Below, one piece after another: positions 4,905 to 61,905 of a stretch of DNA of 64,000 nucleotides; the stretch's first letter is position 1; each line of letters opens with the position of its first letter. Source of the stretch: Thiocapsa bogorovii (GTDB lineage Bacteria; Pseudomonadota; Gammaproteobacteria; Chromatiales; Chromatiaceae); assembly GCF_021228795.1 (NCBI RefSeq), contig NZ_CP089309.1:930001-994000 (forward strand), given 5' to 3'. The notes under the pieces are model-generated. The model did not search any database and had not been told where the DNA came from. It saw only the letters and a list, made by a program, of their open reading frames with translations. The position numbers were made by a program, and so were the translations under genes.

Positions 4905-5510
4905 TTAGGCCGTGACCTGGATCAATGCTCGAACCGGCCCGAAGCTGCGCCGATGCTCCGGACAAGGTCCGAGTCGGCGTAGTGCCTCGATGTGCGAGCG
5001 CGTCGGATAGCCTTTGTGGCCGGCAAAGCCATAGCCTGGAAACGTGCCGTCCAGATCGCGCATGAGTCGGTCGCGCGCAACCTTCGCGAGGATCGAGGCG
5101 GCACCGATCGATGGGACCAAACCGTCGCCGCCAACGATCGCCTCGGTCTCACACCCCAAATCCGGACAACGATTGCCGTCGACGAGCACCCGCGTCGGCC
5201 GCACCTTCAAGGCCGCAACGGCGCGCTGCATCGCGAGCATGGACGCTTGGAGGATATTGATTCGGTCGATCTCTTCCGCGCTCGCCCAAGCGACAGACCA
5301 CGCCAGGGCGCACTCGCGGATCTCCAGATCCAAGGCGATGCGCCGAGCCGGCGTCAGCTTCTTGGAATCGTCCAGACCGGGGATCGGGCGCGCCGGATCC
5401 AGGATGACCGCAGCGGCACTGACCGGACCGGCCAGCGGGCCTCTGCCTGCCTCGTCGACACCTGCGACCCACAAAACCGCGTCCGGGGTGATCAACAAGC
5501 TTAACCTCAT
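4905..5510 (-). CDS. rnhB: Ribonuclease HII
   Basis: RNase HII cleaves the RNA strand of RNA-DNA hybrids and starts removal of misincorporated ribonucleotides. The signature [14 protein letters not shown] is at residues 17-30, with DSKKL, VDGN and the [13 protein letters not shown] helix further on; Asp19 and Glu20 of DEAGRG are catalytic. It is the last gene of the minus-strand lpx block. The first 13 codons lie inside repeat unit 5473-5558, and the chosen ATG at 5510 has no clear ribosome binding site. A TTG immediately before [11 protein letters not shown] would give a start outside most of the repeat, so the N-terminus is uncertain. Confidence 0.93.
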
Positions 5511-5558
5511 ATCCGCATCGTCGAGGCCGCCAAAGGCCTTTTCTTCGACGCGTTTCTA
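5473..5558. repeat. Palindrome-bounded intergenic repeat, unit A1 (degenerate)
   Basis: The left end reads AAAACCGCGTCC and the right end GACGCGTTTCTA, an imperfect inverted repeat. The unit overlaps the 5' end of rnhB. It is paired with unit A2 across an A-rich linker of about 20 nt (GTGAAAAAACAAAAACTTCT). Confidence 0.65.
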
Positions 5559-5578
5559 GTGAAAAAACAAAAACTTCT

Positions 5579-5662
5579 TGAATCGCGTCCCCAACGGGGC
5601 GTTTTGCGCATCGACGCGCGAATCCGAGGTGAGACGGCACGGACGAGACCGGACGCGATTCA
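5579..5662. repeat. Palindrome-bounded intergenic repeat, unit A2
   Basis: This is an 84-bp unit with perfect 12-bp inverted ends, TGAATCGCGTCC and GGACGCGATTCA. It touches the lpxB stop: read on the minus strand, the lpxB TAG is followed in frame by the TGA of the repeat. The C-to-T change relative to the AACCGCG form is present at both ends, so pairing is kept. Confidence 0.85.
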
Positions 5663-6802
5663 CTACCCCATGAGATCGAGGACAGCTTGCGCTGCGCTCG
5701 CTGCGGCATCCTGTCGGAGCCAGAGATGGATGCGCCGGTACTCGGCCTGGATCTCGGCCACACGCTCCTTATCATCCAGAAAAGCCAGCACAGCCGGCGC
5801 AAGTAAATCGGCGCGACAGCGGTCTTGAATGAATTCCGGCGCAAGCTCCTTCTCGGCGAGCAGATTCGCCATCGCGATATAAGGCACCTTGACCAGTCCG
5901 AGCTGTTTGACCAGGTGATAGGACATGGGATGGACCCGATAGGCGACGACCATCGGGCGCTTTGACAACAGGGTTTCCAGCGTTGCCGTTCCCGAAGCGG
6001 TCAGCACGACATCGGCCGAGGCGAGGACCTCGCGGCTGCGCCCGTCGACCAGGGTGATCGGGAGATGCGGCGCGACCTGCTCCAGGGTTTGGCTGAAGCG
6101 TTCGCGCAGCCGGGCGTTGACCAGTGGGACGACGAACCGCAGGTCGGCTCGGGCGGAGAGGCAACGCGCGGCGGTCTCGATGAAGGGCCCGGCCAGACGC
6201 TCGACCTCGCCCGTTCGGCTGCCGGGCAGCAGGGCGACGATGGATCCGAACTGAGGCAGACCGAGGGCTCGTCGCGCACCGACGCGGTCGATCTCAAGCG
6301 GGATCTCGTCGGCGAGCGGATGACCGACATAACGGGCCGGCACGCCGTGCTCGCGCAGGAAGGTCTCCTCGAACGGAAAGACACTCAGCATGAGATCGAC
6401 GGAGCGGCGAATCGACTTGACCCGACCCGGACGCCAGGCCCAGACGGTAGGACTGACCATGTGGACGGTGCGAATCCCAGCCTCGCGCAGTCGCCGCTCA
6501 AGACCGAGATTGAAGTCGGGTGCATCCACGCCGATGAAGACGTCCGGGGGATTCTCGACGAAATAGCGCACCAGATCGCGTCTGAGACCGAGCAGCTCGC
6601 GAAGCTGGCCGAGAACTTCCATTAGACCCATCACCGAAAGCCGTTCCATGGCGAACAGAGACTCGCAGCCCTCCTCCTGCATGCGCGGCCCGGCCACGCC
6701 GACGAAGCGGACCTCGGGGACGCGTTTGCGGATCTCTCGCGCCAGCGCGGCACCCAGGATGTCGCCGGAGGCCTCGTTCGCGACGATCCCGACCCGGAAC
6801 AT
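5663..6802 (-). CDS. lpxB: Lipid-A-disaccharide synthase
   Basis: LpxB joins 2,3-diacylglucosamine-1-phosphate to UDP-diacylglucosamine to make the lipid A disaccharide at the inner face of the cytoplasmic membrane. The 379-residue protein begins [18 protein letters not shown] and contains FVGVAGPRMQEEGCESLF, GVDAPDFNLGLERRLR, the HMVSPTVWAWRPGRV block and LLPGSRTGEV, all family hallmarks. The start is the ATG that overlaps the lpxA stop by one base (TGATG); the frame is open further upstream but lies within lpxA. It belongs to the lpxD-fabZ-lpxA-lpxB run. Confidence 0.97.
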   Translation of the reverse strand: MFRVGIVANEASGDILGAALAREIRKRVPEVRFVGVAGPRMQEEGCESLFAMERLSVMGLMEVLGQLRELLGLRRDLVRYFVENPPDVFIGVDAPDFNLGLERRLREAGIRTVHMVSPTVWAWRPGRVKSIRRSVDLMLSVFPFEETFLREHGVPARYVGHPLADEIPLEIDRVGARRALGLPQFGSIVALLPGSRTGEVERLAGPFIETAARCLSARADLRFVVPLVNARLRERFSQTLEQVAPHLPITLVDGRSREVLASADVVLTASGTATLETLLSKRPMVVAYRVHPMSYHLVKQLGLVKVPYIAMANLLAEKELAPEFIQDRCRADLLAPAVLAFLDDKERVAEIQAEYRRIHLWLRQDAAASAAQAVLDLMG

Positions 6803-7596
6803 CAGCGCACGATACTGCGACTGCTGTCGGAGATGAAGTCCGCCATAGGGCCGATCTCGGGAATGTCGGCGGACATCCGGGTCAGCTCGGCGATCGCCTC
6901 GGCCAGCTTCAGATTCCCCAGATAGAGTGTGCGATAGGCGCGCTTGATCGCTTGAATGGCCCCATCCGAGAACCCGCGTCGACGCAATCCTTCGGCGTTG
7001 ATACCCCGAGGCTCGGCCGGGTGCCCGCCGACGGTTACGTAGGGAGGGACGTCTTTGCCCAAAACCGACCCCATGGCACAGAAACCGTGGGTGCCGATCC
7101 TGCAAAACTGGTGGACGATGGTGAAGCCGCCGAGGATGGCCCAGTCCTGGATCTCGACATGGCCGCCAAGTGAGGCGGCGTTGGCCATGATGACGTTGTT
7201 GCCGATTCGGCAGTCGTGTGCCACATGGACATAGGCCATCAGGAGATTATCGTTGCCGATCCGGGTCACGCCTCGGTCTTGGACCGTGCCGCGATGGAGC
7301 GTCGTGAACTCGCGGATCTGATTGCGATCACCGATCTCCAGGCGTGTTGTCTCGCCGCCGTATTTCTTGTCCTGGGGGTCTTCACCGACACTCGCGAACT
7401 GAAAGATCCGATTGTCGCGCCCGATCCGGGTCGGACCCTTGATCACGGCGTGGGGGCCGATTCGGCTACCCGAACCGATCTCGACATCCGACCCGACGAC
7501 GGCGAAGGGACCGACCTCGACATCGGAATCCAGCGACGCCCCCGGATCGACCAAGGCGGTCGGATGAATCAAGCGGTCACGTCTCGCGCCGTGCAC
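6802..7596 (-). CDS. lpxA: UDP-N-acetylglucosamine acyltransferase
   Basis: LpxA performs the first step of lipid A synthesis, transferring a 3-hydroxyacyl chain from ACP to UDP-GlcNAc. The protein (264 residues) is a left-handed beta helix built of hexapeptide repeats, with the catalytic histidine region [12 protein letters not shown] and the [16 protein letters not shown] loop. The ATG at 7596 overlaps fabZ by 28 bases. A TTG at 7572, overlapping the fabZ TGA as TTGA, would give a start beginning [10 protein letters not shown] that matches homologues more closely, so translation may begin there. Confidence 0.96.
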
Positions 7597-8078
7597 ATGA
7601 TCTCGGCGCTGGCCACGACCCGATCATCAACGCGCGCCTCGGCGTCGAACTTCCAGATCCCGCGACGGACGGGGCCGAGCTTGACGTCCAAAATCAACTG
7701 ATCACCCGGCTCGACCGGTCGTTTGAACCGGGCCTTGTCGATACCGACAAAGTAGTACAGCTTGTTGCCGACCTCGTCCGGACGCGAGACCATCGCCAAC
7801 AATCCGGTCGCCTGCGCCAGCGCCTCGATGATCAAGACGCCGGGCATCACCGGGCGCACCGGGAAATGACCCATGAAGAAAGGCTCGTTGTATGAGACGT
7901 TCTTCAAGGCGGTCAGATAGGCGTTCACCTTGTAGTCGATGACCTTGTCGACCAATAGGAACGGGTAACGGTGCGGCAAGAGGCTCAGCACCTTATGAAT
8001 GTCCATTGTGCTCACGACGTCCTCCGAGCGATCAAGACGCAAATCAGAATCCGTCGGCATGGAATGCGATCCCTCCAT
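7569..8078 (-). CDS. fabZ: 3-hydroxyacyl-[acyl-carrier-protein] dehydratase FabZ
   Basis: FabZ dehydrates 3-hydroxyacyl-ACP in fatty acid elongation and shares its substrate pool with LpxA and LpxD. The hot-dog-fold core starts at about residue 25 ([20 protein letters not shown]). His71 in [11 protein letters not shown] and Glu85 in LIIEALAQ are the expected catalytic pair. The ATG at 8078 lies directly after the lpxD stop and has a GGGAGG ribosome binding site. It gives an N-terminal extension of about 24 residues compared with many homologues. A GTG at 8015 behind GGAGGA, or the ATG at 8006, would give the usual length. Confidence 0.95.
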
Positions 8079-8079
8079 G

Positions 8080-9168: not shown

Positions 9169-9684
9169 TCACTTGTCGACGAACTCCTGCTTGAGTCGCT
9201 CGATGACTTGCGCCGAAATGTCGATACGCGGGCTGAAATACACCAGGCCTTCGCTGATCACGAGATCGATCTTCTCCTCCTTGGCGACCTCGACGATCAC
9301 CTCGCGAACCTGCAACGCAAGCTTGGTCCGAAGCTCGTTCTGTCGCAATGCGAAGTCTTCCTGAAACTCATCCCGCGCATACTTGAGCTTGCGTGTCCGA
9401 TTTCGAATATCGTTTTGCAGCCGCTGAATCTCGCTTTCGCTCATTAAGGCACCTTCGCGTTCCAAGCGGCCTTGAAGTGCGGAGATCTGCTCTTGCTGCT
9501 CGCGCAGAATACGCTCCCGGTCCTCGACTTCCCGCTGAAGTGCGGCGCGCGCAGCCTCGTACTGCGGCGACTGCTCGACGACCTGATTAGGGTCGACCAC
9601 TGCGATCCGATACTCCGACGCCGACACCAGACCCGACAGCAGAATCAACGCGATCGTCGACGACCAAATCACTGCAAATCTCAC
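9169..9684 (-). CDS. skp: Periplasmic chaperone Skp/OmpH
   Basis: Skp is a periplasmic jellyfish-shaped trimer that holds unfolded outer-membrane proteins for delivery to BamA. The 171-residue precursor has a signal peptide (about residues 1-22) followed by EYRIAVVDPNQVVEQSPQ. A long charged coiled-coil rich in Glu, Arg and Gln follows and forms the tentacles, and the C-terminal IDLVISEGLVYFSPRIDI returns to the core strand. It sits between bamA, 12 bases upstream, and lpxD, the standard arrangement. Confidence 0.95.
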   Translation of the reverse strand: MRFAVIWSSTIALILLSGLVSASEYRIAVVDPNQVVEQSPQYEAARAALQREVEDRERILREQQEQISALQGRLEREGALMSESEIQRLQNDIRNRTRKLKYARDEFQEDFALRQNELRTKLALQVREVIVEVAKEEKIDLVISEGLVYFSPRIDISAQVIERLKQEFVDK

Positions 9685-13475: not shown

Positions 13476-13559
13476 TAAATCGCGTCTGGAGTAGCTAATG
13501 ACAGAGGAGTTGCGGGCAACGTCTCCGGCCATCAACAGCGATCGGAGTGACGCGACTTA
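13476..13559. repeat. Palindrome-bounded intergenic repeat, unit B1
   Basis: This is an 84-bp unit with ends TAAATCGCGTC and GACGCGACTTA (one mismatch). It abuts the rseP start codon. It is paired with unit B2 across a 23-nt AT-rich linker containing TTTAATTTTCAATCTT. Confidence 0.8.
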
Positions 13560-13582
13560 GGTCTTTAATTTTCAATCTTATT

Positions 13583-13656
13583 TAAACCGCGTCGACGACG
13601 GCATCACCAGTGAGCCCGGGCCGTCCATTTGCACGGCCGGTCCGGACGCGGCTCAA
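13583..13656. repeat. Palindrome-bounded intergenic repeat, unit B2 (short)
   Basis: The left end is TAAACCGCGTC and the right end GACGCGGCTCAA. At about 74 bp it is shorter than its relatives. The dxr TGA stop (13653-13655) lies within its right end. Confidence 0.75.
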
Positions 13657-14840
13657 ATAACCCGCGACTGGACGAGTTGCTCCGCGCGCGCGCGCGCCCG
13701 TCGATCCACGTCTAAGAGGAAGGCGAGATCCTGCCCTTCGACGTCTTCGTTCGGAAGCGACTCGAGCGTCCCGTCGACGACGGCGGCAATCCCGGGGAGA
13801 TCGAGGCGTCGGTCCAAAAAGGCGGCGACGGCGATCTCGTTGGCCGCGTTCAGGATCGCCGGTGCCGTTCCGCCCAGTGAGGCCGCTTGAAAGGCCAAAC
13901 CGAGGCATGGAAAGCGCGCGAGATCCGGCTCTTCGAAATCCAGATGTCCGACCTTGAAAAGATCCAGTGGCGCAACGCCCGCGTCCAGGCGCGCCGGCCA
14001 ACCGAGCGCATGGGCGATCGGGGTGCGCATATCGGGATTGCCGAGCTGAGCGAGCACGGACCCGTCCTGGTATTGGACCAAGGAATGAATCACGCTTTGA
14101 GGATGGACAACGACCTGGATGCGACCGGTATCGGTTCCGAACAGCCAACAGGCCTCGATGACCTCCAGACCTTTGTTCATCATGGTGGCCGAGTCGACCG
14201 AAATCTTGCGGCCCATCGCCCAAGTAGGGTGTGCACAGGCCTGGTCGGGGGTGACCGACGCGAGTTGCTCGATCGGCCAATCGCGCAACGGACCGCCGGA
14301 GGCAGTCAACAGGATCCGCTCCACGCCGACCGAGGGCAAACCCTCGCAGAAGTTCGGCGGCAGACACTGGAAGATGGCGTTGTGCTCGCTGTCGATGGGC
14401 AGCAGCTCCGCGCCGCTCTCCTCCACGGCGCGCATGAGCAAGGCGCCGGCCACGACCAGGGACTCCTTGTTGGCGAGCAGCAAACGCTTGCCGGCATGGG
14501 CCGCAGCCAGCGTGGGGGGCAGACCCGCGGCACCCACGATCGCCGCCATGACATAGTCCGTCTCCGGCATGGTCGCAACCTGCTCGAGGCCCTCGACACC
14601 CGAGAGGATCTCCGGACGGCCCGGCATGTCCGAGAGCAGCTCGCGCAGTCGCTGCGCCGCCGCCTCGTCGACCATGACCGCGATCCGCGGGCGGTGGCGG
14701 CGGCACTGCTCGGCCATACGCTCGCTGTCGCGATTTGCCGTCAATGCGACCGCGCGAAACTGCTCGGGATGACGCGCGACGACATCGAGGGTGCTGACGC
14801 CGACCGAGCCGGTCGAGCCGAGGACAGTTACGCCGATCAC
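13653..14840 (-). CDS. dxr: 1-deoxy-D-xylulose-5-phosphate reductoisomerase
   Basis: Dxr (IspC) makes 2-C-methyl-D-erythritol 4-phosphate, the committed step of the MEP isoprenoid pathway, which also feeds undecaprenyl phosphate via UppS. The 395-residue protein starts with the NADPH fold [13 protein letters not shown]. It contains [12 protein letters not shown] and the substrate and metal site region [12 protein letters not shown], and ends with the conserved C-terminal helix. The GTG at 14840 is chosen because it overlaps the cdsA stop (GTGA) and gives the normal family length. The frame is open upstream through cdsA, but that portion is not homologous. The stop codon lies in repeat unit B2. 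Confidence 0.96.
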
Positions 14841-19714: not shown

Positions 19715-19942
19715 GGTCTTGCTTCCCGTGGTCTGGGTTGGGCCTCCACGCATCCCAAACGGCAACCTGTGTCCAGGCACCCGGCCGGTTGTGTCGATGC
19801 GTGTGCGGACATGTTCCGGCGCCCGCAGATCGGGGCCGGTCTCGATTCGGCGTTGCGCGACCCGGATCACCCGGGCCGACGGCCGATTGCGCGCAGGATC
19901 TCGGCAGCTCCTAGACTCGTCGAAAGCCCGACAGCAGCCGAT

Positions 19943-26687: not shown

Positions 26688-28172
<1,485 letters not shown>

Positions 28173-28175
<3 letters not shown>

Positions 28176-28256
28176 ACCGCGTCCGGGGCGACATCGGATG
28201 TGTCAGTTAGGCCCGGCCTTGTAGGGATCAAAAACTCCGTCAGGAGACGCGGTTCA
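28173..28256. repeat. Palindrome-bounded intergenic repeat, unit C1
   Basis: This is an 84-bp unit with perfect ends TGAACCGCGTC and GACGCGGTTCA. The first three bases are the dapE stop. Both ends carry the A-to-G / T-to-C change relative to the TAAACC form, so pairing is preserved. A 29-nt T-rich linker leads to unit C2. Confidence 0.85.
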
Positions 28257-28285
28257 GAATTTCGATGTTTTTTCCAGATCGGATC

Positions 28286-28372
28286 TAAACCGCGTTCAGA
28301 GCGGGATGCTGATGTCCGAGTGAGTTCGACGCTTGGTGCATCCACGCCTCCTTAGCGGGGACACGGTTTTAA
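28286..28372. repeat. Palindrome-bounded intergenic repeat, unit C2
   Basis: The ends are TAAACCGCGTT and ACACGGTTTTA. The interior resembles unit F1 (50948-51030) and, inverted, unit D2 (28794-28877). An 18-nt linker with TCTTTTAATATCT joins it to C3. Confidence 0.85.
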
Positions 28373-28390
28373 AGATCTCTTTTAATATCT

Positions 28391-28475
28391 TAAACCGCGC
28401 CGGCTCCAGCGGCCGTCAAGTCTGTCAGGGCCGATCCCATCCAAAAACATCGCATCCCGCGCTCGGCGCGGTTTA
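28391..28475. repeat. Palindrome-bounded intergenic repeat, unit C3
   Basis: This is an 85-bp unit with ends TAAACCGCGCC and GGCGCGGTTTA. It is closely similar over its whole length to F2 (51054-51138) and to the inverse of G (51971-52055). It ends 12 bases before the tautomerase start, so the ribosome binding site (CGGAG) follows the repeat directly. Confidence 0.9.
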
Positions 28476-28487
28476 ACGGAGATCGAT

Positions 28488-28688
28488 ATGCCCTACGTCA
28501 ACATCAAGATCACCCGCGAGGGTGCGACCGCGGAGCAGAAGGCGGCACTCATCAAGGGCGTCACACAGCTGCTGGTCGACGTGCTCGGAAAGAATCCGCA
28601 GACAACGATGGTCGTCATCGACGAGATCGAGACCGACAACTGGGGCATCGGCGGGGAGAGCGTGACGGTGCGTCGCCGCCGAGACTAA
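28488..28688 (+). CDS. 4-oxalocrotonate tautomerase family protein
   Basis: The 66-residue protein begins MPYVNIKITREG, so removal of Met exposes the catalytic Pro1 of the tautomerase superfamily. The helix EQKAALIKGVTQLLVDVLGK and the strand TTMVVIDEIETDNWGIGGES match DmpI/XylH-like single-domain members, which work as hexamers. The substrate is unknown; no aromatic catabolism genes are near. The gene is isolated between repeat pairs: C2-C3 in front, D1-D2 behind in roughly inverted order. Its TAA stop is the first triplet of unit D1. Confidence 0.92.
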   Translation: MPYVNIKITREGATAEQKAALIKGVTQLLVDVLGKNPQTTMVVIDEIETDNWGIGGESVTVRRRRD

Positions 28689-28771
28689 ACCGGGCAGAGT
28701 GCGGTATGCGTCATTTGCGGGCGTGGATTGGCCCCGCCAGCTCCGACTGCTTTCGGTGCTAGCGCGGTTGA
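28686..28771. repeat. Palindrome-bounded intergenic repeat, unit D1
   Basis: The ends are TAAACCGGGC and GCGCGGTTGA (imperfect). The interior resembles unit E and, less closely, the inverse of C3. The first triplet is the tautomerase stop. It is joined to D2 by a 22-nt AT-rich linker (AAAAAAATCTTCAATTC). Confidence 0.75.
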
Positions 28772-28793
28772 ACGTCAAAAAAATCTTCAATTC

Positions 28794-28877
28794 TAAACCG
28801 CGTCTCGGCTAAGAGCCGTAGATGCACCGAACGTCGAACCCACGCGAAAGTGAGCATCTCGCTTTGGACGCGGTTTA
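28794..28877. repeat. Palindrome-bounded intergenic repeat, unit D2
   Basis: This is an 84-bp unit with ends TAAACCGCGTC and GGACGCGGTTTA. Read on the minus strand its interior aligns with C2 and F1 (shared GCGAGATGCT, GGTTCGACG and GGTGCATC blocks). It lies three bases from the Uma2 gene stop, giving a second in-frame TAA. Confidence 0.85.
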
Positions 28878-28880
28878 GGT

Positions 28881-29438
28881 TTAATCGCCCAGAATGTAAC
28901 CCAAGTCGATCTCGACGGCATCGAACGGCGGGATACGCATCTTCCGCTCGTCGGGGCCGGGCGCGGCGACGCTGGCGATGACCCGGTAACTACCCCCGTC
29001 GAGTTGCCAGGCGACCAGTGAGCGTTCCTCGGGCCAGATCAGCCAGTAGTAGGACACCTGTTGGCGCTGAAGCAACAGAAACAGGGTCAGCGTGTCCTTG
29101 CGCTCATGTCCAGGCGAAACGATCTCGCACACCCAGTCCGGGACGATCTCGACGACCCCGCTCGGGCGATCAGGCAGCCGTTCCTTCCGCCAGCCCGCGA
29201 GATCGTGGGTCGGGCACTGGTGGTCGGAGTAGTGGACGCTGACCTCGCTGGCGATCCACCAGCCGCCAGGGCCAGAGGCGCGTCGTAACGAGTCGAGCTC
29301 GGCGACCGTATTGCTTTGCACGAAGCCGTGCTCGATCCGCGCCATCGGGCGCTGGACGATCTCGCCATCGATCAGCTCGACACGCTCGTCGGAAGCATCG
29401 AACAGATCGGCCAGGGTCTTGAGTTTGAGTGCTTCCAT
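28881..29438 (-). CDS. Uma2 family (DUF820) putative restriction-like endonuclease
   Basis: The product (185 residues) has the Uma2 pattern: RVELIDGEIVQRPMARIEHG, a central ASEVSVHYSDHQCPTHDLAGW and the PD-(D/E)XK-like core PDWVCEIVSPGHERKDT followed by QVSYYWLIWPEERSLVAW. Such genes are widespread and often multicopy in cyanobacteria and sulfur bacteria; their true function is not established. It is alone, bounded by repeat D2 at its 3' end and unit E beyond its 5' end, and is a plausible accessory gene. Confidence 0.9.
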   Translation of the reverse strand: MEALKLKTLADLFDASDERVELIDGEIVQRPMARIEHGFVQSNTVAELDSLRRASGPGGWWIASEVSVHYSDHQCPTHDLAGWRKERLPDRPSGVVEIVPDWVCEIVSPGHERKDTLTLFLLLQRQQVSYYWLIWPEERSLVAWQLDGGSYRVIASVAAPGPDERKMRIPPFDAVEIDLGYILGD

Positions 29439-29476
29439 CGCTGTCGCTCCGCTGTTTTTAACATCGACGCTTAACC

Positions 29477-29579
29477 TGAACCGCGCCCGGTGCGCTCTGC
29501 GTCATTCCGTGGAGTGGCTTGGCCGCGCCGGCTCGGACAACTGCCGGAAAACGATGCCGATCGCTCCGGACGCGGTTTA
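29477..29579. repeat. Palindrome-bounded intergenic repeat, unit E (long)
   Basis: The ends are TGAACCGCGCC and GGACGCGGTTTA. At 103 bp it is longer than its relatives. The interior shares blocks with D1 (TGCGTCATT, TTGGCC, CGCC-GCTC). The right-end TTA is the mtnA TAA stop on the minus strand. Confidence 0.8.
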
Positions 29580-30644
29580 GAGCCCCCGGCCCCCCATCAA
29601 GGCCCGGATCTTTTCCTTGGTCGGACGAAGCACCACGCCGCGCTCGGTCACGATCGCGTCGACCAAGTCAGCCGGGGTCACGTCGAACACCGGATTGCGG
29701 GCGACGCATCCGGCGGGTGCGAGGCGCCGCTCGCCGCAGCTCAACAGCTCGTCCGGATTACGCTCCTCGATCGGAATCTCGTCACCGCTCGCGATCTCCA
29801 TGTCGATGGTGGACGTGGGTGCCGCGACCATGAACTTGATCCCGTGGTGTTTCGCGAGGATCGCGAGGCCGTAGGTCCCGATCTTGTTTGCGACATCACC
29901 GTTGGCGGCGATGCGATCCGATCCGACGATGACCCAACCGACAGAGCGCCCCGCCATCAAGCTCGCGGCCGCCCCGTCCGCCTGCAGGGTCACCGGGATG
30001 CCGTCGTGCATCAGCTCCCAGGCGGTGAGTCGTGCGCCTTGCATCCAGGGCCGCGTCTCGTCGGCGAAGACGCTCCCGATCTTGCCGGCCGCATAGGCGC
30101 TGCGAATGACACCGAGCGCCGTGCCGTAGCCACCCGTGGCGATCGCCCCGGCGTTGCAATGGGTAATGACGTCGGTCGGAGCCTCGATCAGCGCCGCACC
30201 CAAATCGCCGATCACCCGATTGGCGGCACGATCCTCGGCGTGGATCGAAAGCGCCTCGTCCACCAGGGCCGGGAACGGATCACGTTCATCCAGACTCAAG
30301 ATCAGACGGCGCATCCGATCGATCGCCCAGAAGAGGTTGACCGCGGTCGGACGCGAGGCGGCCAGACGCTCAAGGTCGGATTCGATCGCGGCTCGCCAAT
30401 CGGCGCCTGCGGCCGCGTAGGCGTCCCGCCCTGCCAGTGCAACCCCGTAAGCCGCGGCGACACCGATAGCCGGCGCGCCGCGCACCACCATCGCACGAAT
30501 CGCATCGGCGACCGCACTCGCATCCATCAGTCGCAAGAACTCCGCACGGTCGGGCAGCAGACGCTGATCCGCGAGATAGAGGGCACCATCGTGCCAGAGT
30601 GCCGCATCGTCCGGGGTCGGCACGGTCGGGATCGTTGTTTCCAT
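29577..30644 (-). CDS. mtnA: Methylthioribose-1-phosphate isomerase
   Basis: MtnA isomerises 5-methylthioribose-1-phosphate to methylthioribulose-1-phosphate in methionine salvage. The 355-residue protein has [35 protein letters not shown] with the catalytic Cys, [17 protein letters not shown] and [19 protein letters not shown]. The ATG at 30644 has an AAGGAG site 7 nt upstream. It is divergent from mtaD, which acts earlier in the same salvage route. The stop lies in repeat unit E. Confidence 0.96.
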
Positions 30645-30712
30645 CGGGGGCTCCTTGTGGCATGTTCTCGCCATTGTCACCCATCCCCCGCCCCGACTGA
30701 AAGGACCGACCG

Positions 30713-32023
30713 ATGCAAGCCGAGCTTCTGATCCATGCCCAGTGGGTACTGCCCGTTGATCCCCGAGATCGTCAGCTCACCGATCATGCGGTCGCGATCG
30801 CGGACGGGCGCATCCTCGCCGTGCTGCCCTCCGAAGAGGCGCGACGCAGTGTCGACGCCCAACGGGTGATCGAGCTACCCGGCCACCTGCTCATCCCGGG
30901 CCTGATCAATGCACACACTCACGCCACCATGGTGCTGATGCGGGGGCTCGCCGACGACCTGCCCCTCATGACCTGGCTGCATGAGCATATCTGGCCCGCA
31001 GAGCAGCGTTGGGTGGACCCCGGATTCGTCGCCGACGGGACCCGACTGGCTGTGCTCGAGATGTTGCGCGGCGGCATCACCTGCTACAACGACATGTATT
31101 TCCATCCCGAGGTAACGGCCCAGGTGACGGCTGAGGCCGGGATGCGTGCCGTCATCGGCATGATCGTCGTGGATTTCCCCACCGGGTATGCCGCGAATGC
31201 CGACGAATACATCACCAAGGGCCTCGCCCTGCATGAGCACTATCGGGACCATCCGTTGATCCGGGTCGCCTTCGCGCCGCATTCGCCCTACGCGGTATCG
31301 GACGCGCCGCTGCAACGCGTGCGTGCGCTGGCGGACGAACTGGAGGTTCCGATCCATATCCATCTCCACGAGACACGCGACGAGATCCTCCAGTCGCTGC
31401 GCGACCACGGAGAGCGGCCGATCTCGCGACTGAATCGACTCGGATTGCTCGGCCCGGGACTGGTGTGCGTACACATGACTCAGCTCGATGAGGACGAGAT
31501 CGCGCTCTTGGCCGACACGGGCGCCCATGTCGTCCATTGTCCGGAATCGAATCTGAAGCTCGCGAGCGGGTTCTGCCCGGTCGCGAAGCTCTTGGAGGCA
31601 GGGATCAACGTCGCAATCGGCACCGATGGCGCAGCAAGCAACAACGACCTGAACATGCTCGGTGAGATGCGTACGGCTGCCCTGCTCGGCAAGGGCGTAG
31701 CAGGCTCGGCATCTGCGCTGCCGGCTGCGACCGCCTTGCGGATGGCGACCATCAACGGTGCCAGAGCACTCGGAGTGGAGGATGAGATCGGCTCGCTCGA
31801 GCCCGGAAAGTCGGCGGACTTGGTCGCACTGGATCTGCGCGACTCCCACACCCAACCCCTCTACCACCCGATCTCGCAGCTGGTCTATGCGGCCAGTCAG
31901 CAACAGGTGCGTCACGTCTGGGTACGGGGCCGCCATTTGCTCCGCGACGGCCTGCCCACCGGGCTGGACAACGGCCGGATTATCGCCGCCGCACAGGCTT
32001 GGGGGGATCGTCTCGGGCGCTAA
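30713..32023 (+). CDS. mtaD: TRZ/ATZ family hydrolase, probable 5'-methylthioadenosine deaminase
   Basis: This is a metal-dependent amidohydrolase of the MTA/S-adenosylhomocysteine deaminase group (436 residues). Metal-site motifs are [39 protein letters not shown] and [14 protein letters not shown], followed by the C-terminal [19 protein letters not shown]. In Pseudomonas a homologous MTA deaminase lies beside mtnA; deamination then gives methylthioinosine, which a phosphorylase converts to the MtnA substrate. The divergent arrangement here supports that role over an atrazine-type substrate. The TAA stop is the first triplet of repeat unit H1. Confidence 0.9.
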
Positions 32024-32105
32024 ACCGCGTCAGGTATCACATGGATTCGTTTCGAAGCGACACCGGCCAAGGCCGACCGCCCGGCGCCATGGACGACGCG
32101 GTTTA
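32021..32105. repeat. Palindrome-bounded intergenic repeat, unit H1
   Basis: This is an 85-bp unit with ends TAAACCGCGTC and GACGCGGTTTA, perfect over 11 bp. The first triplet is the mtaD stop. A 20-nt linker (GATCAATAGATTCAAAGATC) joins it to H2. Confidence 0.9.
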
Positions 32106-32125
32106 GATCAATAGATTCAAAGATC

Positions 32126-32213
32126 TAAACCGCGTCTGGCACAACGTTTTCAGTTCTGCACGGTGCGTCTACCGCCCGTCGAACGTCGTTTGTCGGGGGA
32201 TGGACGCCGCTTA
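32126..32213. repeat. Palindrome-bounded intergenic repeat, unit H2
   Basis: The ends are TAAACCGCGTC and GGACGCCGCTTA. The right-end TTA is the stop codon of the RlpA-like gene on the minus strand, so the H1-H2 pair joins two convergent stops. Confidence 0.85.
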
Positions 32214-32651
32214 GAACAGATCCATCAGGACCCGTTCGGCATCGGCGAGCGCGGGGGTCTTTCCGGCAGGCCACGAGGGACCTCCCGAGTCGACGATCTC
32301 AAGACGCACCGGGGCAACGCCCCGTCCCAACATCCCGATCTCCCTGGCAGCCGCCTTCGAGAGATCGATCGTGCGGCCTCTCACGAAAGGGCCGCGATCG
32401 TTGATGACAACCTCGACGGATCGGCCGTTCGCCTTGTTCGTAACGCTCACTCGCGTGCCGAACTCCAGTGTCCGATGAGCCGCGGTCAAGGCATTCTTGT
32501 CGAATCGGACACCGCTGGCGGTGCGCCGGCCGTCGAAACGATCTCCATAGTAAGACGCCGTACCATCCGTGACATTGGCCTGAAGGGTTGTCGTAGGAAG
32601 AAACGCCAACATTGCGAGCGCCGGGATCAACCAGATGTTCTGTCGAATCAA
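32211..32651 (-). CDS. Septal ring lytic transglycosylase RlpA-like protein
   Basis: This is a secreted double-psi beta-barrel protein. After a signal peptide (IWLIPALAMLAFLPTTTLQA) the mature part has GTASYYGDRFDGRRTASGVR, NALTAAHRTLEFGTRV, NDRGPFVRGRTIDLSKAAA and IGMLGRGVAPVRLE, the DPBB signature including the catalytic-type Asp. RlpA proteins cleave naked glycan strands at the septum. There is no SPOR domain, so it is a short RlpA-like form (146 residues). The TTG at 32651 is chosen for its GGAGA site 8 nt upstream; no ATG precedes the signal peptide core. It lies downstream of an L,D-transpeptidase, another wall enzyme. Confidence 0.88.
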   Translation of the reverse strand: MIRQNIWLIPALAMLAFLPTTTLQANVTDGTASYYGDRFDGRRTASGVRFDKNALTAAHRTLEFGTRVSVTNKANGRSVEVVINDRGPFVRGRTIDLSKAAAREIGMLGRGVAPVRLEIVDSGGPSWPAGKTPALADAERVLMDLF

Positions 32652-32853
32652 AACAGAGTTCTCCGTTCGTAACGTTTGGTGTTTGAGCCGGGATTCGCAT
32701 ACCTTCCGAATCGCGACCAAGCGCGAGTCTAACGGGAGAGAGGATTTCAATCCACCCCGAGGCAAACACGAAACGCTCGTGGCACGCGCCTTCGGCACGA
32801 CGCACGGGACGGATTTCCGCACTCGCCGATCGCGAGGCCGGAGATCGCGGTCT

Positions 32854-34647
32854 TCAGAGAAGACCTGTAGGGCGCACCTCGGTGCGATCGAGGGTCGAGG
32901 CGGTAGGATCCGAGCCATGGGTCCCGGACCCAGCTTTGTCACCGTTTCCTTCCGTGAAATCCCGACGGGTGAGGCGAACCGAGGAGTCTTTATCGGGAGG
33001 GTTCACAGGCTCGACATTCGGTGTTCGCTCGGGCTTCCCGGGGCTCGGACTCTCGGCCGGAGGCTCAGGGAAGCTGATGCGCGTGCGCAGGACGGGCGCC
33101 GAGAAGGCAGCACGCAAGGCCTCGTCACGGCTGTAGATATCTTTTCGAAAGCCGACCTTACCCTGCTCGTCGGCGAACGCCGTCAAATAGTAGAGCAGCA
33201 CCGGCAACCGGTCCGCGAGGTCGACATAGCGCGTCCGTCCGCGCTCGACCACGCGATCGATTCCGGACCGATCCCAGCTGGGCTGGTCGAGAATCGCCTC
33301 CGCAAGCGCGAGCGGGTCTTGCACCCTGACACAGCCGTTGCTCAAGGCGCGTGTTTGGCGCCCGAAAGCGGATTTTCCGGGCGTGTCGTGGAGATAGATC
33401 GCATGGCGGTTCGGGAACATAAATTTGACGCGGCCGAGGGCGTTTTTCGGGCCCGGCGCCTGGACAAGCCGATAACGCTTATAATCGCCGGCATTCCCCC
33501 CGCCGACCTGCTTCCCGGTGCGGCGATCGACCAACCGATAGTCGCTGGAGACTCGACCCATCTTCTTCTGGATGGACACGGGCACCGTCCAGGTCGGATT
33601 GAAGACCAAGTGCTCCATGGTGTCGCGAAACATCGGTGTTTGGGTCTCGGGCGTCCCGACGATGACGCGCGTCGACCAGACGAAGCTCCCGCCGCGCGCA
33701 AGGTGAACCTTGAACGCGGCGATATCCACGAAAACATAATCTTCGGGCAGATCCTGATAGAGCCAGCGCAACCGCTCCAGGTTAATCCGGATTTCCTCGG
33801 CCTTTGTCTCATCACCGTGCCCGTTAAGCGCAGCGAGGGTCGAGGGACCCACGACGCCATCGGCGGCGAGACCCGATCGCCGCTGGTACGACACCACGGC
33901 TTCGTGAAGTGCGGCGTCGAAGAGAGCGGCATCGGGCGGCGTCTCAACCACCGCGCCATCGAGGCGCGCGAGCCGTTCACGCAGCATCGCCACGCGCGGA
34001 TGCCGCTCTCCTTGGGCGAGATTCGGCCCGGCCGGCAGGGGCGGCAGTCCCACGAGAGAGGTCTGAGCGGTATAGCGCTGCAGCGCGGTTTTTAGGTCGT
34101 CGTACCAGAACGGACGGGGAAAGCGAGCGCTCAAGCTCGTTTCGAGATCCTTGCCGCCGAGCGCACGGTGCATCTCGGCTAAGAGGACCTCGCTGGACGC
34201 GGGAGATCGATCGTGCCATTTCGAATCGACGGCGACCGGATCGAGCTTGCCGTAACGATGGTGGTGAACATAACGCGCCAAGGCATCGCTGAGGATGAGA
34301 TCGGCGGCGATACGTGCGTTACCGCTCAAGGATTCGAGGACACCCGGAGGGGCGAGTCGACGGAGACTCTCGGCATGGAAATCATCGGGTCGGAAGCCTT
34401 CCGAGCCACTTTGCTGCGCGAGGTCCAAGAGGCCCGAAATTCGCGCCGGATCGACCCAGACCAAGACATCTCCGCGCTGCGCGTAGAATTCGGCCAGCAG
34501 ACGACCGGACAACAAGGGCACGCCTTCGATGGCGACGGTTCGCGCATCACGGATCGAATCGAGCGTCGGGCGCAGTAGCTCATTCGTGGATGCCGGTGCA
34601 GAGACGACGGCCAAGAACCCAAACAGAACCATCAAACGGCAACGCAT
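32854..34647 (-). CDS. L,D-transpeptidase (YcbB/LdtD type)
   Basis: The 597-residue protein carries an N-terminal signal peptide (VLFGFLAVVSAPAS) and a scaffold domain with repeated helices. A peptidoglycan-binding domain follows (SYQRRSGLAADGVVGPSTLA, about residues 260-290), then a YkuD catalytic domain with HAIYLHDTPGKSAFGR and RALSNGCVRVQDP, whose Cys is the nucleophile. It forms 3-3 crosslinks in the periplasmic wall. The C-terminal 90 residues are low-complexity, rich in Pro, Glu, Ser and Arg, beyond the usual end. About 200 bases separate it from the RlpA-like gene. Confidence 0.95.
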   Translation of the reverse strand: MRCRLMVLFGFLAVVSAPASTNELLRPTLDSIRDARTVAIEGVPLLSGRLLAEFYAQRGDVLVWVDPARISGLLDLAQQSGSEGFRPDDFHAESLRRLAPPGVLESLSGNARIAADLILSDALARYVHHHRYGKLDPVAVDSKWHDRSPASSEVLLAEMHRALGGKDLETSLSARFPRPFWYDDLKTALQRYTAQTSLVGLPPLPAGPNLAQGERHPRVAMLRERLARLDGAVVETPPDAALFDAALHEAVVSYQRRSGLAADGVVGPSTLAALNGHGDETKAEEIRINLERLRWLYQDLPEDYVFVDIAAFKVHLARGGSFVWSTRVIVGTPETQTPMFRDTMEHLVFNPTWTVPVSIQKKMGRVSSDYRLVDRRTGKQVGGGNAGDYKRYRLVQAPGPKNALGRVKFMFPNRHAIYLHDTPGKSAFGRQTRALSNGCVRVQDPLALAEAILDQPSWDRSGIDRVVERGRTRYVDLADRLPVLLYYLTAFADEQGKVGFRKDIYSRDEALRAAFSAPVLRTRISFPEPPAESPSPGKPERTPNVEPVNPPDKDSSVRLTRRDFTEGNGDKAGSGTHGSDPTASTLDRTEVRPTGLL

Positions 34648-50765: not shown

Positions 50766-50947
50766 AGGGTGGACCTCGATCCTCGTCGGGCCACGATGCC
50801 CGCATGAACACTCGATCTGAATCAGGCCGGCGTCGGCCCGGCCAGTCGTGAAAGTTCCGAGTATAATGCCCGCCACCGGCAGGCGATACGACAAGGCCCC
50901 GCCATGAAGACCTCAGGTTTGCGCTAGCCCTGTGTGCGATCCCACGT

Positions 50948-51030
50948 CATCCGCGTCCAGAGCGAGATGCTGACTTTCGAGTGAGCCCGGCGTTTGATGC
51001 ACCCACACCACTTAGCGGGGAAGCGGTTTA
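50948..51030. repeat. Palindrome-bounded intergenic repeat, unit F1
   Basis: The left end is decayed (TCATCCGCGTCC) and the right end is AAGCGGTTTA. The interior aligns with C2 across its length. It is joined to F2 by a 23-nt linker with TTATATTTTTTAATATTTT. Confidence 0.85.
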
Positions 51031-51053
51031 AAATGTTATATTTTTTAATATTT

Positions 51054-51138
51054 TAAACCGCGCCGGCTCCAACGGTCGTCAAGTCTGCCGGGGCCGATCC
51101 CATCCACAAACATCGCATACCGCGCTGGGCGCGGTTTA
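51054..51138. repeat. Palindrome-bounded intergenic repeat, unit F2
   Basis: The ends are TAAACCGCGCC and GGCGCGGTTTA, 85 bp. It is nearly the same sequence as C3. It ends 19 bases upstream of the ypjD-like start. Confidence 0.9.
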
Positions 51139-51157: not shown

Positions 51158-51973
51158 ATGACCCATACCCTCATTGCCATCGTCGCCATCCTCTGCTACT
51201 CGGCGGCCGCCGCCTTGATCGGCATGCGCTTGTTCCGCAAGACCGACGGATGGACTCCGAAGCGCCCGCTGATGCTCGGACTGATGTTCGTCGGCCTCGC
51301 ACTACACAGCTGGCTTCTTTGGGACAGCATCTTCAGCCACGCCGGACTCAATCTCGGGTTCTACAACGCGCTGGCGCTCACCACCTGGACCATCATCACG
51401 CTGCTGCTGGTGTCGAGCCTGACCAAGCCGGTGGAAAACCTCGGCCTGCTGCTCCTGCCCGCCGCGGCCCTGAGCCTCGTCTTGGAGGCATCGTTCGCCG
51501 ATGTCGGCTTCATGCGCCCGAGTGCGGACTGGCCCCTGAAGATCCATGTCCTGCTCTCGATGCTGGCCTACAGTCTCCTGACCTTGGCCGCCGTGCAGGC
51601 GATCCTGTTGGCCGTGCAGGACAGCCACCTGCGCAGCCGTCATCCGGGCGGCTTCGTGCGCACCCTGCCCCCCCTTCAGACGATGGAAAGCCTGCTCTTC
51701 GAGATGATCACCGCGGGCTTCGTACTCCTGACCCTGGCGCTGTTGAGCGGTTTCGCCTTCCTCGAAGACATGCTCGCACAGCACCTCGTGCACAAGACGG
51801 TGCTCTCGATCCTGGCGTGGCTGATGTTTGGCGGACTGCTCATCGGGCGGTTTCGCAAGGGCTGGCGCGGTCGTACCGCGATCGGCTGGACGCTCGGTGG
51901 GTTCGTTGTGCTGATTCTGGCCTACTTCGGCAGCAAAGCCGTCTTGGAGCTGGTTCTGCAACGCGCCGCTTAA
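51158..51973 (+). CDS. Inner membrane CcsA/YpjD-type cytochrome c assembly-like protein
   Basis: The 271-residue membrane protein has about eight hydrophobic helices. It matches the CcsA/HemX domain group, with KIHVLLSMLAYSLLTLAAVQAI, VRTLPPLQTMESLLFEMI and QHLVHKTVLSILAWL, including conserved histidines. Location beside ffh, as for ypjD in E. coli, supports the call. A role in haem handling is inferred from the domain only. Its TAA stop is the first triplet of repeat unit G. Confidence 0.9.
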   Translation: MTHTLIAIVAILCYSAAAALIGMRLFRKTDGWTPKRPLMLGLMFVGLALHSWLLWDSIFSHAGLNLGFYNALALTTWTIITLLLVSSLTKPVENLGLLLLPAAALSLVLEASFADVGFMRPSADWPLKIHVLLSMLAYSLLTLAAVQAILLAVQDSHLRSRHPGGFVRTLPPLQTMESLLFEMITAGFVLLTLALLSGFAFLEDMLAQHLVHKTVLSILAWLMFGGLLIGRFRKGWRGRTAIGWTLGGFVVLILAYFGSKAVLELVLQRAA

Positions 51974-52055
51974 ACCGCGCCCAGCGCAGTATGCAATGTT
52001 TTCGGATGCGATCAGCCTCGGCGGACTTGGCGGCCGTTGGAGCCGGCGCGGTTTA
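51971..52055. repeat. Palindrome-bounded intergenic repeat, unit G
   Basis: The ends are TAAACCGCGCC and GGCGCGGTTTA, 85 bp. It is an inverted relative of C3 and F2. It occurs singly, and F2 with G flank the ypjD-like gene as inverted copies. The first triplet is the stop codon of that gene. Confidence 0.9.
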
Positions 52056-57634: not shown

Positions 57635-57910
57635 TCCTAGATCCGGCGTTAAGTACCTAAAAAGCTCCGATCGACCGACTCCGATCCAACAATCGGCGGT
57701 CGATCGCGCGTGGCGCAGTCACGGCACGACAACTCCGCGACCGTGCGGAACGCGGAGATCGCCACCCGGCCTGCCCGCGCACCCCCGCAAGCTGCGAAAT
57801 TTCGTTCGCCTCGTCCCAAGTCGGTACCCGCCGGCACCGCACGCAGATAGACTAGGGGCGTCTACTGGTTGCACCTGCTCCTCCAAAACGCCCCGTTGCA
57901 AGGTTCGTCT

Positions 57911-58900: not shown

Positions 58901-58924
58901 TCGACGGATCTACCGCGAGGCGCC

Positions 58925-59800: not shown

Positions 59801-61385
59801 GCGCGCGCACCGAGACGAAGGCCGCCTCGATCCGTTCGAGCAACTCGTCCAACGGAGGTGTTCGGCTGGTATCGATAAAGACCGCATGGACACGCTCGTC
59901 TGATGCCAAGGGTTCCAGCGCCAGCCGTTGGCGCTCGAGAACCCGCACGTCGGCGTCCGAGACATCCTGTTTCTCGGCACGCCGGGAAACGATGCGGTGA
60001 CGCAGCACATCCAGGGGGGCATCGAGCGCCAGGATCGCGATCGGTATGCGCTGCCGCCGAGCCAAGTCCCAAAACAGTGCGCGCCGCGCCGCGCGGATGA
60101 AGGTCGCATCGACCAACACGTCGTAACCGTAGCCGAGGATCGCCTCTGCCAGACGCAATAGACGGTCGTAGGTCCATTCGGTCGCGGTCGGGAAATAGAT
60201 CCCGGCATCGAGCGACGCACGGGCGGACACGGTCTCGGAGATTCCGAAGAGCCGCTTGCGCTCGATGTCCGAGCGCAAATGGATCAAGGGGAGTGCCTCG
60301 CGAAGCAGCCGCGCCATATAGCTCTTTCCGGATCCGGACAGTCCGCACGCAATCAACAGGCGCGGCGACCGAATGCAGGTGTAGGACTCGGCAAGCTCCA
60401 GATAACGGATGCAGGTCGAGCGATCGCGGGCCTCTTGCGCCGGATCCAGATCGGCCTGCGCGAGACGGATCGCCATGACCTTCGCCCGAACCAGCGCGCG
60501 ATAGACCTTGTAAAGATCCAGCAGGGACAAGAGCTCATAGTCTCCGCTACGCTCCAGATATCGGTTGAGGAAACGCCGCCCCAACGGCTCCGCGCCGGAT
60601 TCATCGAGGTCCATGGTCAGGAAAGCGATCTCGCTCGCCGTGTCGATCCAGCGTAGGAAGGGGTTGAACTCGATCGCGTCGAAGATGCGAATCTCCCCGT
60701 TCACCAATGCGACGTTGCCGCGGTGCATGTCGCCGTGGCACTCGCGCACAAAGCCGTTGCGCCGCCGCCGTTCAATCATCGGAATCAGGGATTGCCAGCG
60801 CGCGCGTGTCCAGGCTTCGACGCGATCCAGACGCTCGCGGGGATCCGGCAGCAGGGCCCGGGAGCGAATCTGCACCAGGTTCTCGACCATGGGCGCAAGC
60901 ACGGCGTCGGGAGTGCCGAAAGGACTCTCGGGATCGGCGACCGGGATCCGGGCGTGAAACTCGGCAATCTCCACGGCCAAGCGATCGATCAGCTCGCCGG
61001 AAAGCTCCTGACGGTCAAGCAGGGCCTCTTGCGGGAAACGGTGCATCTGCACGGCGTACTCCTGCACAGGACCGGTTCCGCCGATGCGCGGCGCGTTTGC
61101 GGTGCCGGTGACGGCAACCACGCCCAGATAGAGAGCCGGCGCGAGACGCCGATTCAGCCGCAGCTCCTCCTCGCAACAGCGGCGACGGCGTTCCAGCGTG
61201 GAGAAGTCGAGAAAACCCAGATCGATGGGCTTCTTGAGCTTGTAGGCAAACGCACCCGCGAGAAACACATGGGAGATGTGGGTCTCGATGTGCTCGACCG
61301 GGTCGGCAGGGTGCGGGTAGGCATCCGGTCGCATCAGGGCGTGTATCAGGCACGGAAAGGTGTCGACGTCCACGGGGCAGCTCAC
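59787..61385 (-). CDS. Aminoglycoside phosphotransferase-like / P-loop kinase fusion
   Basis: The 532-residue protein has two parts. The first, about residues 1-330, resembles aminoglycoside/choline kinase-like enzymes, with AGAFAYKLKKPIDLGFLDFS and the catalytic loop ECHGDMHRGNVAL followed by IFDAIEFNPFLRW. The second, about residues 345-532, is a P-loop kinase with IACGLSGSGKSYMARLLRE (Walker A), HLRSDIERKRLFG and DVLVDATFIRAARRALF, resembling gluconate or zeta-type kinases. Such fusions are widespread but uncharacterised; the substrate cannot be assigned. The GTG at 61385 is used; the 3' end overlaps the EamA gene. Confidence 0.9.
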   Translation of the reverse strand: MSCPVDVDTFPCLIHALMRPDAYPHPADPVEHIETHISHVFLAGAFAYKLKKPIDLGFLDFSTLERRRRCCEEELRLNRRLAPALYLGVVAVTGTANAPRIGGTGPVQEYAVQMHRFPQEALLDRQELSGELIDRLAVEIAEFHARIPVADPESPFGTPDAVLAPMVENLVQIRSRALLPDPRERLDRVEAWTRARWQSLIPMIERRRRNGFVRECHGDMHRGNVALVNGEIRIFDAIEFNPFLRWIDTASEIAFLTMDLDESGAEPLGRRFLNRYLERSGDYELLSLLDLYKVYRALVRAKVMAIRLAQADLDPAQEARDRSTCIRYLELAESYTCIRSPRLLIACGLSGSGKSYMARLLREALPLIHLRSDIERKRLFGISETVSARASLDAGIYFPTATEWTYDRLLRLAEAILGYGYDVLVDATFIRAARRALFWDLARRQRIPIAILALDAPLDVLRHRIVSRRAEKQDVSDADVRVLERQRLALEPLASDERVHAVFIDTSRTPPLDELLERIEAAFVSVRAPTEQ

Positions 61386-61504
61386 CTCATCCGTCCGGCA
61401 AAGACCTTACATCAATCGACCTTGAACCGAGTATAAGCGTTCTTTAATATCCCGTGCGATACTCGTCCTCTCCCAACCCGCAACCCGAACCGTTGGAGCT
61501 GTTT

Positions 61505-61705
61505 ATGTCTATCGAACGCATCGTATTTGCCGTCGCCGGCGCCTTCATCCTGATCTCGCTCCTGCTTGCGCACTACGTCAGCCCCTACTGGCTGTGGTTC
61601 ACGGCCTTCGTCGGCCTGAATCTCTTCCAGTCGGCCTTCACCGGATTCTGCCCGATGGCCCTGATCCTGAAGAAGATGGGCAAGAAGACCGGCCCCGCAT
61701 TTTGA
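61505..61705 (+). CDS. DUF2892-type small membrane protein
   Basis: The 66-residue protein has two hydrophobic helices ([20 protein letters not shown] and [20 protein letters not shown]) and the tail [14 protein letters not shown]. This matches the DUF2892 group, which often accompanies rhodanese domains in sulfur metabolism (compare YgaP), in an inner-membrane position. No rhodanese is attached or adjacent here. The ATG at 61505 has GGAG 7 nt upstream. Repeat unit I1 begins seven bases after the stop. Confidence 0.88.
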
Positions 61706-61712
61706 CGCCGAC

Positions 61713-61796
61713 TAAACCGCGTACGGAGCGATTCAAGTCGCTTCGTCTTTTGTCTCGGCCTCGTCGGACATTACGGCCTCGGCGCAACGCGGTTTA
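61713..61796. repeat. Palindrome-bounded intergenic repeat, unit I1
   Basis: The ends are TAAACCGCGTAC and AACGCGGTTTA, 84 bp. A 25-nt AT-rich linker (ACTATACATAGTTCTTCATG) leads to I2. Confidence 0.9.
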
Positions 61797-61821
61797 GGAC
61801 TATACATAGTTCTTCATGACT

Positions 61822-61905
61822 TAAATCGCGTCTGCGCCGACTGCTCATGGACGTGAGAATCCCGCCCCAAGCTCCGAGCCCGCATATCGCAGCGGACGCG
61901 ATTTA
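61822..61905. repeat. Palindrome-bounded intergenic repeat, unit I2
   Basis: The ends are TAAATCGCGTC and GGACGCGATTTA, 84 bp; both carry the C-to-T / G-to-A change, so pairing is kept. The right-end TTA is the rimO stop on the minus strand. The I1-I2 pair joins two convergent gene ends. Confidence 0.9.

Follow-up and report, generated by a model that had tools for sequence, protein, structure and literature searches.

A palindrome-bounded intergenic repeat family of Thiocapsa bogorovii is very probably a two-armed, non-autonomous element of the IS630/Tc1 type

We analyzed a stretch of 64,000 nucleotides of the Thiocapsa bogorovii genome (NZ_CP089309.1, positions 930,001 to 994,000; hereafter the window), which carries a dense family of palindrome-bounded intergenic repeats of about 85 bp. 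Very probably, this family is a non-autonomous miniature inverted-repeat transposable element (MITE) of the IS630/Tc1 type that would be moved by an IS630-family transposase. The 85-bp unit is an arm, and the mobile unit is the pair of two arms and a linker, about 192 bp in all. The transposase would recognise outer ends of about 34 bp and insert the whole pair at the TA inside a YTAR target (Y, pyrimidine; R, purine). One half of a pair is at times lost afterwards, probably by recombination between direct copies of the end motif, leaving a single arm. Insertions at TAA or TAG stop codons leave the protein intact and are over-represented. After insertion, each arm keeps its own closing stem, through either selection of the hairpin or templated repair of near-palindromes.

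The original prediction, made from the sequence alone, had listed 17 such units in the window, and all 17 are borne out, far above chance. The end motif is matched 52 times with up to two mismatches, against 15.6 matches expected and 25 in the richest of 100 shuffles. A scan for two 11-bp end motifs lying 60-115 bp apart recovered 16 of the 17 units at the coordinates given and nothing in any of 20 dinucleotide shuffles. Unit 28686, whose ends have diverged, was the one not recovered, yet it is visible in the sequence. The unit placed at 50948 in truth starts at 50947 (TCATCCGCGTC). As to the two units of odd length, the 103 nt of unit 29477 stood, but this unit is an apparent chimera, and the 74 nt of unit 13583 were corrected to 73. 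A genome-wide search gave 243 strict-pattern matches in the single contig of 5,649,927 bases of T. bogorovii (T. roseopersicina BBS, the genome described in PMC10892978) and 0 with the reversed pattern as a control.

Most units are indeed paired, the window holding seven pairs and three singles (Table 1). In a sample of 124 units (464 kb of the T. bogorovii genome and six orthologous loci), 28 of 36 close neighbours lay with their left ends outward, the others being oriented ++ (5), -- (2) and -+ (1), and the linkers were mostly of 22-24 nt. A larger sample of 1.264 Mb of the same genome comprised the window and 60 stretches, mostly picked around known units, so that its densities are not genome averages. 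It gave 197 units in 143 clusters, of which 91 were single, 50 double and 2 triple; some of these singles may be pairs whose second arm is too diverged for the scan. Unit length was 83-86 bp in 179 of the 197, and four subfamilies with at least five members (22, 12, 38 and 16 units) were found among the units of 84, 85 and 86 bp. The AT-rich linkers of 18-29 nt that had been announced are real: the 53 linkers measured had a mean A+T content of 78%, against a G+C fraction of 0.60 for the units, and all 53 began with R and ended with Y. Exactly 23 nt were counted in 26 of them, which have the common consensus AAAT.tTATATTTTTTAATatcT. A pair is built of two arms, mostly of 83-86 bp, placed left ends outward around an AT-rich linker of about 23 bp, and it contains internal copies of the end motif at the inner ends of the arms. 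As in an IS630-type MITE, the pairs are short and multicopy, with no transposase gene inside.

Comparison of the orthologous gaps in relatives revealed that some Thiocapsa genomes have a whole pair where others have none. The pair 28286-28475 is absent from L061, L062, L063 and L065, where the near flanks are kept, and the pair 28686-28877 is absent from L063, L064 and L065. At the site 50947-51138, genome G001 is empty and reads CCCACT-TA-GGCCC, G002 has the pair between two TAs, and G008 has a single T. At 51971, G004 and G010 have TAG and G002 and G007 have TAA, all without the element; the right flank agrees there over three bases only. Twelve sites with an empty counterpart were found in total, including two syntenic comparisons (the window region in six Thiocapsa genomes and a 40-60 kb region in five). 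At six of them, one or more of the empty relatives retain a single TA: 50947, 51971, G004 24153, G004 26396, G010 17758 and position 389021 of T. bogorovii, where the G002 counterpart reads TG. The TA duplication of an IS630-type MITE is found in part, with TA at both filled ends and at these 6 of 12 empty sites.

It had been noted that the ends would also fit TA-targeting, IS630/Tc1-like MITEs, and this suggestion is supported on three counts: outer ends that match IS630-family ends, YTAR flanks, and the six single TAs. The search for an insertion sequence (IS) with matching terminal repeats, which the prediction had proposed, led to a 1.27-kb IS630-family element in other Chromatiaceae. Elements of this size with matching inverted ends, terminating in TAAACC, were reached in G091 and G135 via lone outer ends in unit-poor genomes. 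The G091 element encodes, at L119:3686-4825, an IS630-family transposase (NF033545 at E 3.4e-54 and 184.3 bits, the curated cut-off being 100; PF13358 at E 9.1e-24, with helix-turn-helix families), and the DD34E spacing of the IS transposase was counted by eye in the translation. G174 has three copies of the IS at different sites, two identical and one different by 1 base. Since the units had been found via an 11-mer, only positions beyond it count as evidence for the end match. From nt 12 to nt 34, outer ends taken from 66 pairs of T. bogorovii and other genomes agreed with those of the IS at 13.8 of 23 positions, against 7.8 for inner ends and 6.1 for random window stretches (maximum 13 in 2000). 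Matches at 15 or more of the 23 positions were seen for 70 of 132 outer ends, 1 of 132 inner ends and 0 of 2000 random stretches. Seven of the 14 IS loci found entered this comparison, the others being two repeats of the G174 element and five one-ended loci. The base before the element end is C or T in 271 of 280 cases, hence the target YTAR, and the seven IS copies likewise have C or T before and A or G after. We infer from these likenesses that insertion would be the work of an IS630-family transposase of the G091 kind. The four IS630-family (DDE_3) genes of the T. bogorovii genome itself were rejected as the source, having no paired ends and one lone 9-mer, with 1 mismatch, at L112.

Several observations weigh against this reading. 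A matching transposase (E<=1e-60) was not found among the candidates of the T. bogorovii genome, 8 of 8 scored, nor in the other unit-rich Thiocapsa, among the best 9 candidates in several of them. A survey of 210 genomes of the order, in many of which only the best 9 candidates were scored, found the protein at this threshold in 10, namely G006 and nine genomes of other genera; the copy of G006, a Thiocapsa, carries an internal stop. Among the nine are, in favour of the reading, the unit-bearing G061 and G063 from one other genus, with IS copies or remnants that are fragments or decayed. In the two IS copies examined there is no internal copy of the end motif at fewer than 2 mismatches in 9, and there are four 9-mers at 2; descent of the MITE from a G091-type IS by deletion, which one might suppose, finds no support in these internal matches. 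A correspondence of the two arm types to the two ends of the IS was not supported either, both consensuses being nearer the transposase-start end (17 against 15 of 23 positions for arm A, 19 against 16 for arm B). Finally, 6 of the 12 empty sites have no TA. The empty copy has GA or TC at 28286, 28686 and G002 25844 and TG at G010 24122, in flanks otherwise largely identical; G004 46229 and G002 6540 (in the second region) have poorly conserved flanks and no TA. If the element needs YTAR, the filled lineage must have mutated first wherever the empty site is not TA. Such a prior mutation to TA is possible at the divergence seen; a change at exactly that dinucleotide within matching flanks is odd. 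Where the empty site has GA for TA, a "replacement" may also be envisaged.

One would also wonder whether the single 85-bp arm is itself mobile, the pairs being two independent arm insertions about 23 bp apart. We regard this as quite improbable. It is true that two of the 12 sites known to be empty in a relative (51971, and G004 24153 with G008 26672) hold a single arm in every filled genome, that inner ends too lie in a Y-TA context, and that singles make up 91 of the 143 sampled clusters. On the other hand, the linkers are alike in length (23 nt in 26 of 53) and share a consensus, the pair is present or absent as one, and the inner ends lack the longer IS match. Moreover, at four sites a pair-length insert in one species faces a single arm between the same flanks in another: 191 bp in G010 against 85 bp in G004; 193 bp in G000 and G004 and 191 bp in G002 against 85 bp in G010; 194 bp in G000 against about 90 bp in G004; and 192 bp in G004, whose second arm was missed by the scan, against 84 bp in G000. 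At least some of the single arms are thus one half of a former pair. Independent arm insertion could have been the origin of the first pair. Further mosaic recombination was read by eye in the 29477 unit and its orthologous site in L064 and L065.

The original prediction had also likened the units to REP doublets forming hairpins (REPINs) or to bacterial interspersed mosaic elements (BIMEs). Their ends would then be the hairpins of repetitive extragenic palindromes (REPs), spread by a REP-associated tyrosine transposase (RAYT). Short intergenic palindromes in inverted pairs do recall such elements, and the genome contains 14 Y1-transposase matches. Ten of these loci were examined and none is flanked by units or bears one at an edge; a pair lies 1.3 kb from one of them, and several have nothing but lone end-like matches with 1-2 mismatches. 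REPs carry a GTAG head, which is not at the ends of the units. As the ends match the IS630 element and six empty sites have a single TA, the likeness was not borne out, and we judge this explanation extremely unlikely.

Element ends often coincide with gene ends. At 66 of 140 clusters, four of them at both ends, the element opens with three bases that serve a neighbouring gene as its in-frame stop; these 140 are the clusters of the 1.264-Mb sample lying away from stretch edges, with genes called by a simple codon-usage caller written for this work and not by the Prokaryotic Genome Annotation Pipeline. The stop-supplying ends comprise 55 TAA, 12 TGA and 3 TAG. None of the 140 clusters is inside a called gene, and 14 are between divergent genes, whose gaps make up 43.2 kb of a total gap length of 188.7 kb. 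An insertion at a TAA or TAG stop leaves the protein intact, since TAA is what the element starts with. A TAA or TAG stop after a pyrimidine is itself a YTAR, so that this targeting accounts for the stop use in part. It does not do so fully, since elements occupy 67 of the 236 YTAR sites at stops against 74 of the 832 other intergenic ones (odds ratio 4.06, p 4e-13) and, in convergent gaps only, 23 of 82 against 13 of 150 (p 2e-4). Occupied loci were counted here whatever their flank, and these criteria give 67 where the cluster count gives 66. A detection bias is possible in this excess, a stop codon shielding part of one end from decay. The excess is also seen, in small numbers, in datable copies: 5 of the 11 insertions with a known empty site are at stops (389021 of T. 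bogorovii is not at a stop; G002 6540 was left out). Stops are used as well in other genera (3 of 6 clusters in G063, 5 of 11 in G143) and in five further Thiocapsa genomes (26 of 43, partly orthologous).

The stems that close the arms behave as separate units. In 42 pairs, 9-bp end variants were common to both ends of one arm in 10 + 10 cases (unshared, 21 + 15), against means of 1.06 + 1.61 and maxima of 4 + 6 in 1000 shuffles; across arms they were at chance (outer-outer 2, inner-inner 4). The scan behind these figures ignores pairing, accepting ends within 4 mismatches in total, and it has a background: where the real window gives 18 hits, the reversed window gives 4 and mononucleotide-shuffled windows give 1-7. 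A stricter scan gave the same pattern (10, 9, 2 and 3). Judging from these variants, the two ends of an arm stay paired with each other, which is not so for the two outer ends, on which the transposase would act. One could assume that the arms are kept as functional RNA hairpins at mRNA 3' ends and that this function explains their density at stops. Besides the variants and the occupancy of stop YTARs (67/236 against 74/832), an excess of G-U over A-C mismatches on the transcribed strand in same-direction gaps (44 against 21, p 0.006) points that way. However, the arm interiors lean alike (145 against 112), which brings the G-U excess to p 0.08 two-sided and 0.04 one-sided, and the same end pairing could be yielded by templated repair. 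The interiors show no excess folding (40 units, both strands, mean z 0.06; whole-unit folds had z of -0.4 to -4.3 in 13 folds), and neither of the two intrinsic-terminator pattern matches in 28000-33000 is at a unit. We therefore hold a function as RNA hairpins to be rather unlikely. Two narrower candidates fared no better: a structured arm interior beyond the closing stem, not supported by the mean z, and RNA-level selection deduced from the G-U bias, suggestive alone and weaker against the interior control. It is doubtful, too, that the two-armed MITE has become a standard gene-end module, with insertion at stops favoured or retained, the stop codon provided by the element and each arm kept as an mRNA 3'-end hairpin. 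If this were true, a transposon family would shape the ends of many unrelated genes across a genus.

Table 1. Repeat elements of the window, in window coordinates.
Position	Type	Composition	Relation to genes
5473..5662	pair	arms 5473-5557 and 5579-5662, linker between	right edge directly adjoins CTA, the TAG stop of the minus-strand gene called at 5663-6802
13476..13655	pair	arms 13476-13559 and 13583-13655, linker 23 nt	right end is the stop codon of minus-strand gene 13653-14840
28173..28256	single arm		TGA 28173-28175 is the in-frame stop of gene 27042-28175
28286..28475	pair	arms 28286-28370 and 28391-28475, linker between	
28686..28877	pair	arms 28686-28772 (ends diverged) and 28794-28877, AT linker	TAA is the stop of gene 28488-28688
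29477..29579	single unit of 103 nt, apparently a chimera	left part of one unit kind joined to right part of another kind	right end is the stop of minus-strand gene 29577-30644
32021..32213	pair	arms 32021-32105 and 32126-32213, linker 20 nt	outer ends are the stop codons of both convergent genes (30713-32023 plus, 32211-32651 minus)
50947..51138	pair	arms 50947-51030 and 51054-51138, linker 23 nt	
51971..52055	single arm, 85 bp		TAA is the stop of gene 51158-51973
61713..61905	pair	arms 61713-61796 and 61822-61905, linker 25 nt	right end is the stop of minus-strand gene 61903-63222

The gene 30713-32023, which we take to be of the gshA type, has orthologues in five Thiocapsa records that are 94-95% identical. 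At the Rfam gathering threshold, the window contains only a t44 RNA (19737-19825, minus strand, 65.7 bits) and two tRNAs, and the repeat units match no curated covariance model. ARAGORN also called a tRNA-Ile (aat) at 9542-9623 on the minus strand, within a called coding sequence and with no Rfam match at that threshold; it is probably a false call.

Other small elements were seen in related genomes. In G028, a 101-bp element (L126:14813-14913) has both outer ends but neither the inner halves nor the linker, and looks like an internal-deletion form of the pair. Within the AT linker of a pair of G028 (L125:4571-4923) lies a small palindrome-bounded element of a second kind, its ends resembling TTAGGCGATT / AATCGCCTTAA, and a stretch with similar ends lies in an intergenic gap of G001 (L152, near 1390-1510). 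Gaps of two Thiocapsa genomes (the L061 gap around 7480-7750 and the downstream gap of L151) hold a further intergenic repeat, whose inverted halves contain GGATGGGTAGAGC and AACCCATCC.

Strict units were found in 12 of the 56 genomes searched, T. bogorovii included. The other ten Thiocapsa genomes have 504, 322, 375, 336, 1, 0, 206, 159, 1 and 616; many of the compared genomes being drafts, such counts are lower bounds. With up to one mismatch, the outer-end pattern was detected in 32 of 210 genomes of the order and, among 369 sampled genomes of the class, in that of the window alone. Within the family Chromatiaceae the distribution is patchy, as for mobile DNA. We found no description of the repeat in the passages and listings of the literature searched. 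Four 11-mers of the ends gave text matches only in papers with unrelated-looking titles. The available text of the T. bogorovii genome paper (PMC10892978) has no match to "insertion sequence" or "intergenic", nor has that of a review of prokaryotic MITEs to IS630 or stop codon. As far as this literature goes, both the family and its likely motor are new, and so are the two-armed anatomy with separate stems and the extent of stop-codon use. The build with internal end copies, the arm-specific end variants and the YTAR targeting with stop-codon supply are unusual. A likely motor can be named for a repeat family that is very abundant, with as many as 616 strict arms in a single Thiocapsa genome, selection of gene-end mobile repeats for transcript effects becomes testable, and annotated gene ends in these genomes often lie inside mobile DNA.

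A parallel can be drawn with several known systems, as they are described in the available parts of the papers cited. The RUP of Streptococcus pneumoniae, 107 bp long and proposed to be moved in trans by IS630-Spn1 (PMC2229807, PMC3049150), is likewise a short non-coding intergenic MITE with IS630-family-like ends and a TA target. By its description it is set apart as a single element with 9-bp ends, whereas the Chromatiaceae family has two arms, internal end copies and about 192 bp, and is distinguished from RUP by its stop-codon use. Members of the IS630 family, including ISY100 and IS630 itself, target and duplicate TA (PMC2170065), IS630 preferring the TA in CTAG according to a title cited there; the family of the window targets YTAR and, unlike these, does not encode a transposase. 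In another purple sulfur bacterium, Thiohalocapsa PB-PSB1, MITE-like arrays of small repeats match the ends of remote IS and are predicted to form stem loops; they differ by their description as tandem arrays at diversity-generating retroelement (DGR) loci, tied to IS_223, IS411 and IS_238 (PMC10907252). The CIR elements of Caulobacter also consist of two inverted-repeat arms joined by a linker (PMC2229807), an arrangement found here in the 28 of 36 neighbours with left ends outward and in linkers of 18-29 nt. The CIR RNA arms are described as long inverted repeats that carry a GANTC motif, and terminal inverted repeats are lacking (PMC2229807), whereas the Chromatiaceae arms are closed by only about 11 bp and their outer ends match an IS630 element. 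Altogether, a MITE of the IS630 type is of a kind known from RUP, and the build of this family is closest to that described for CIR.

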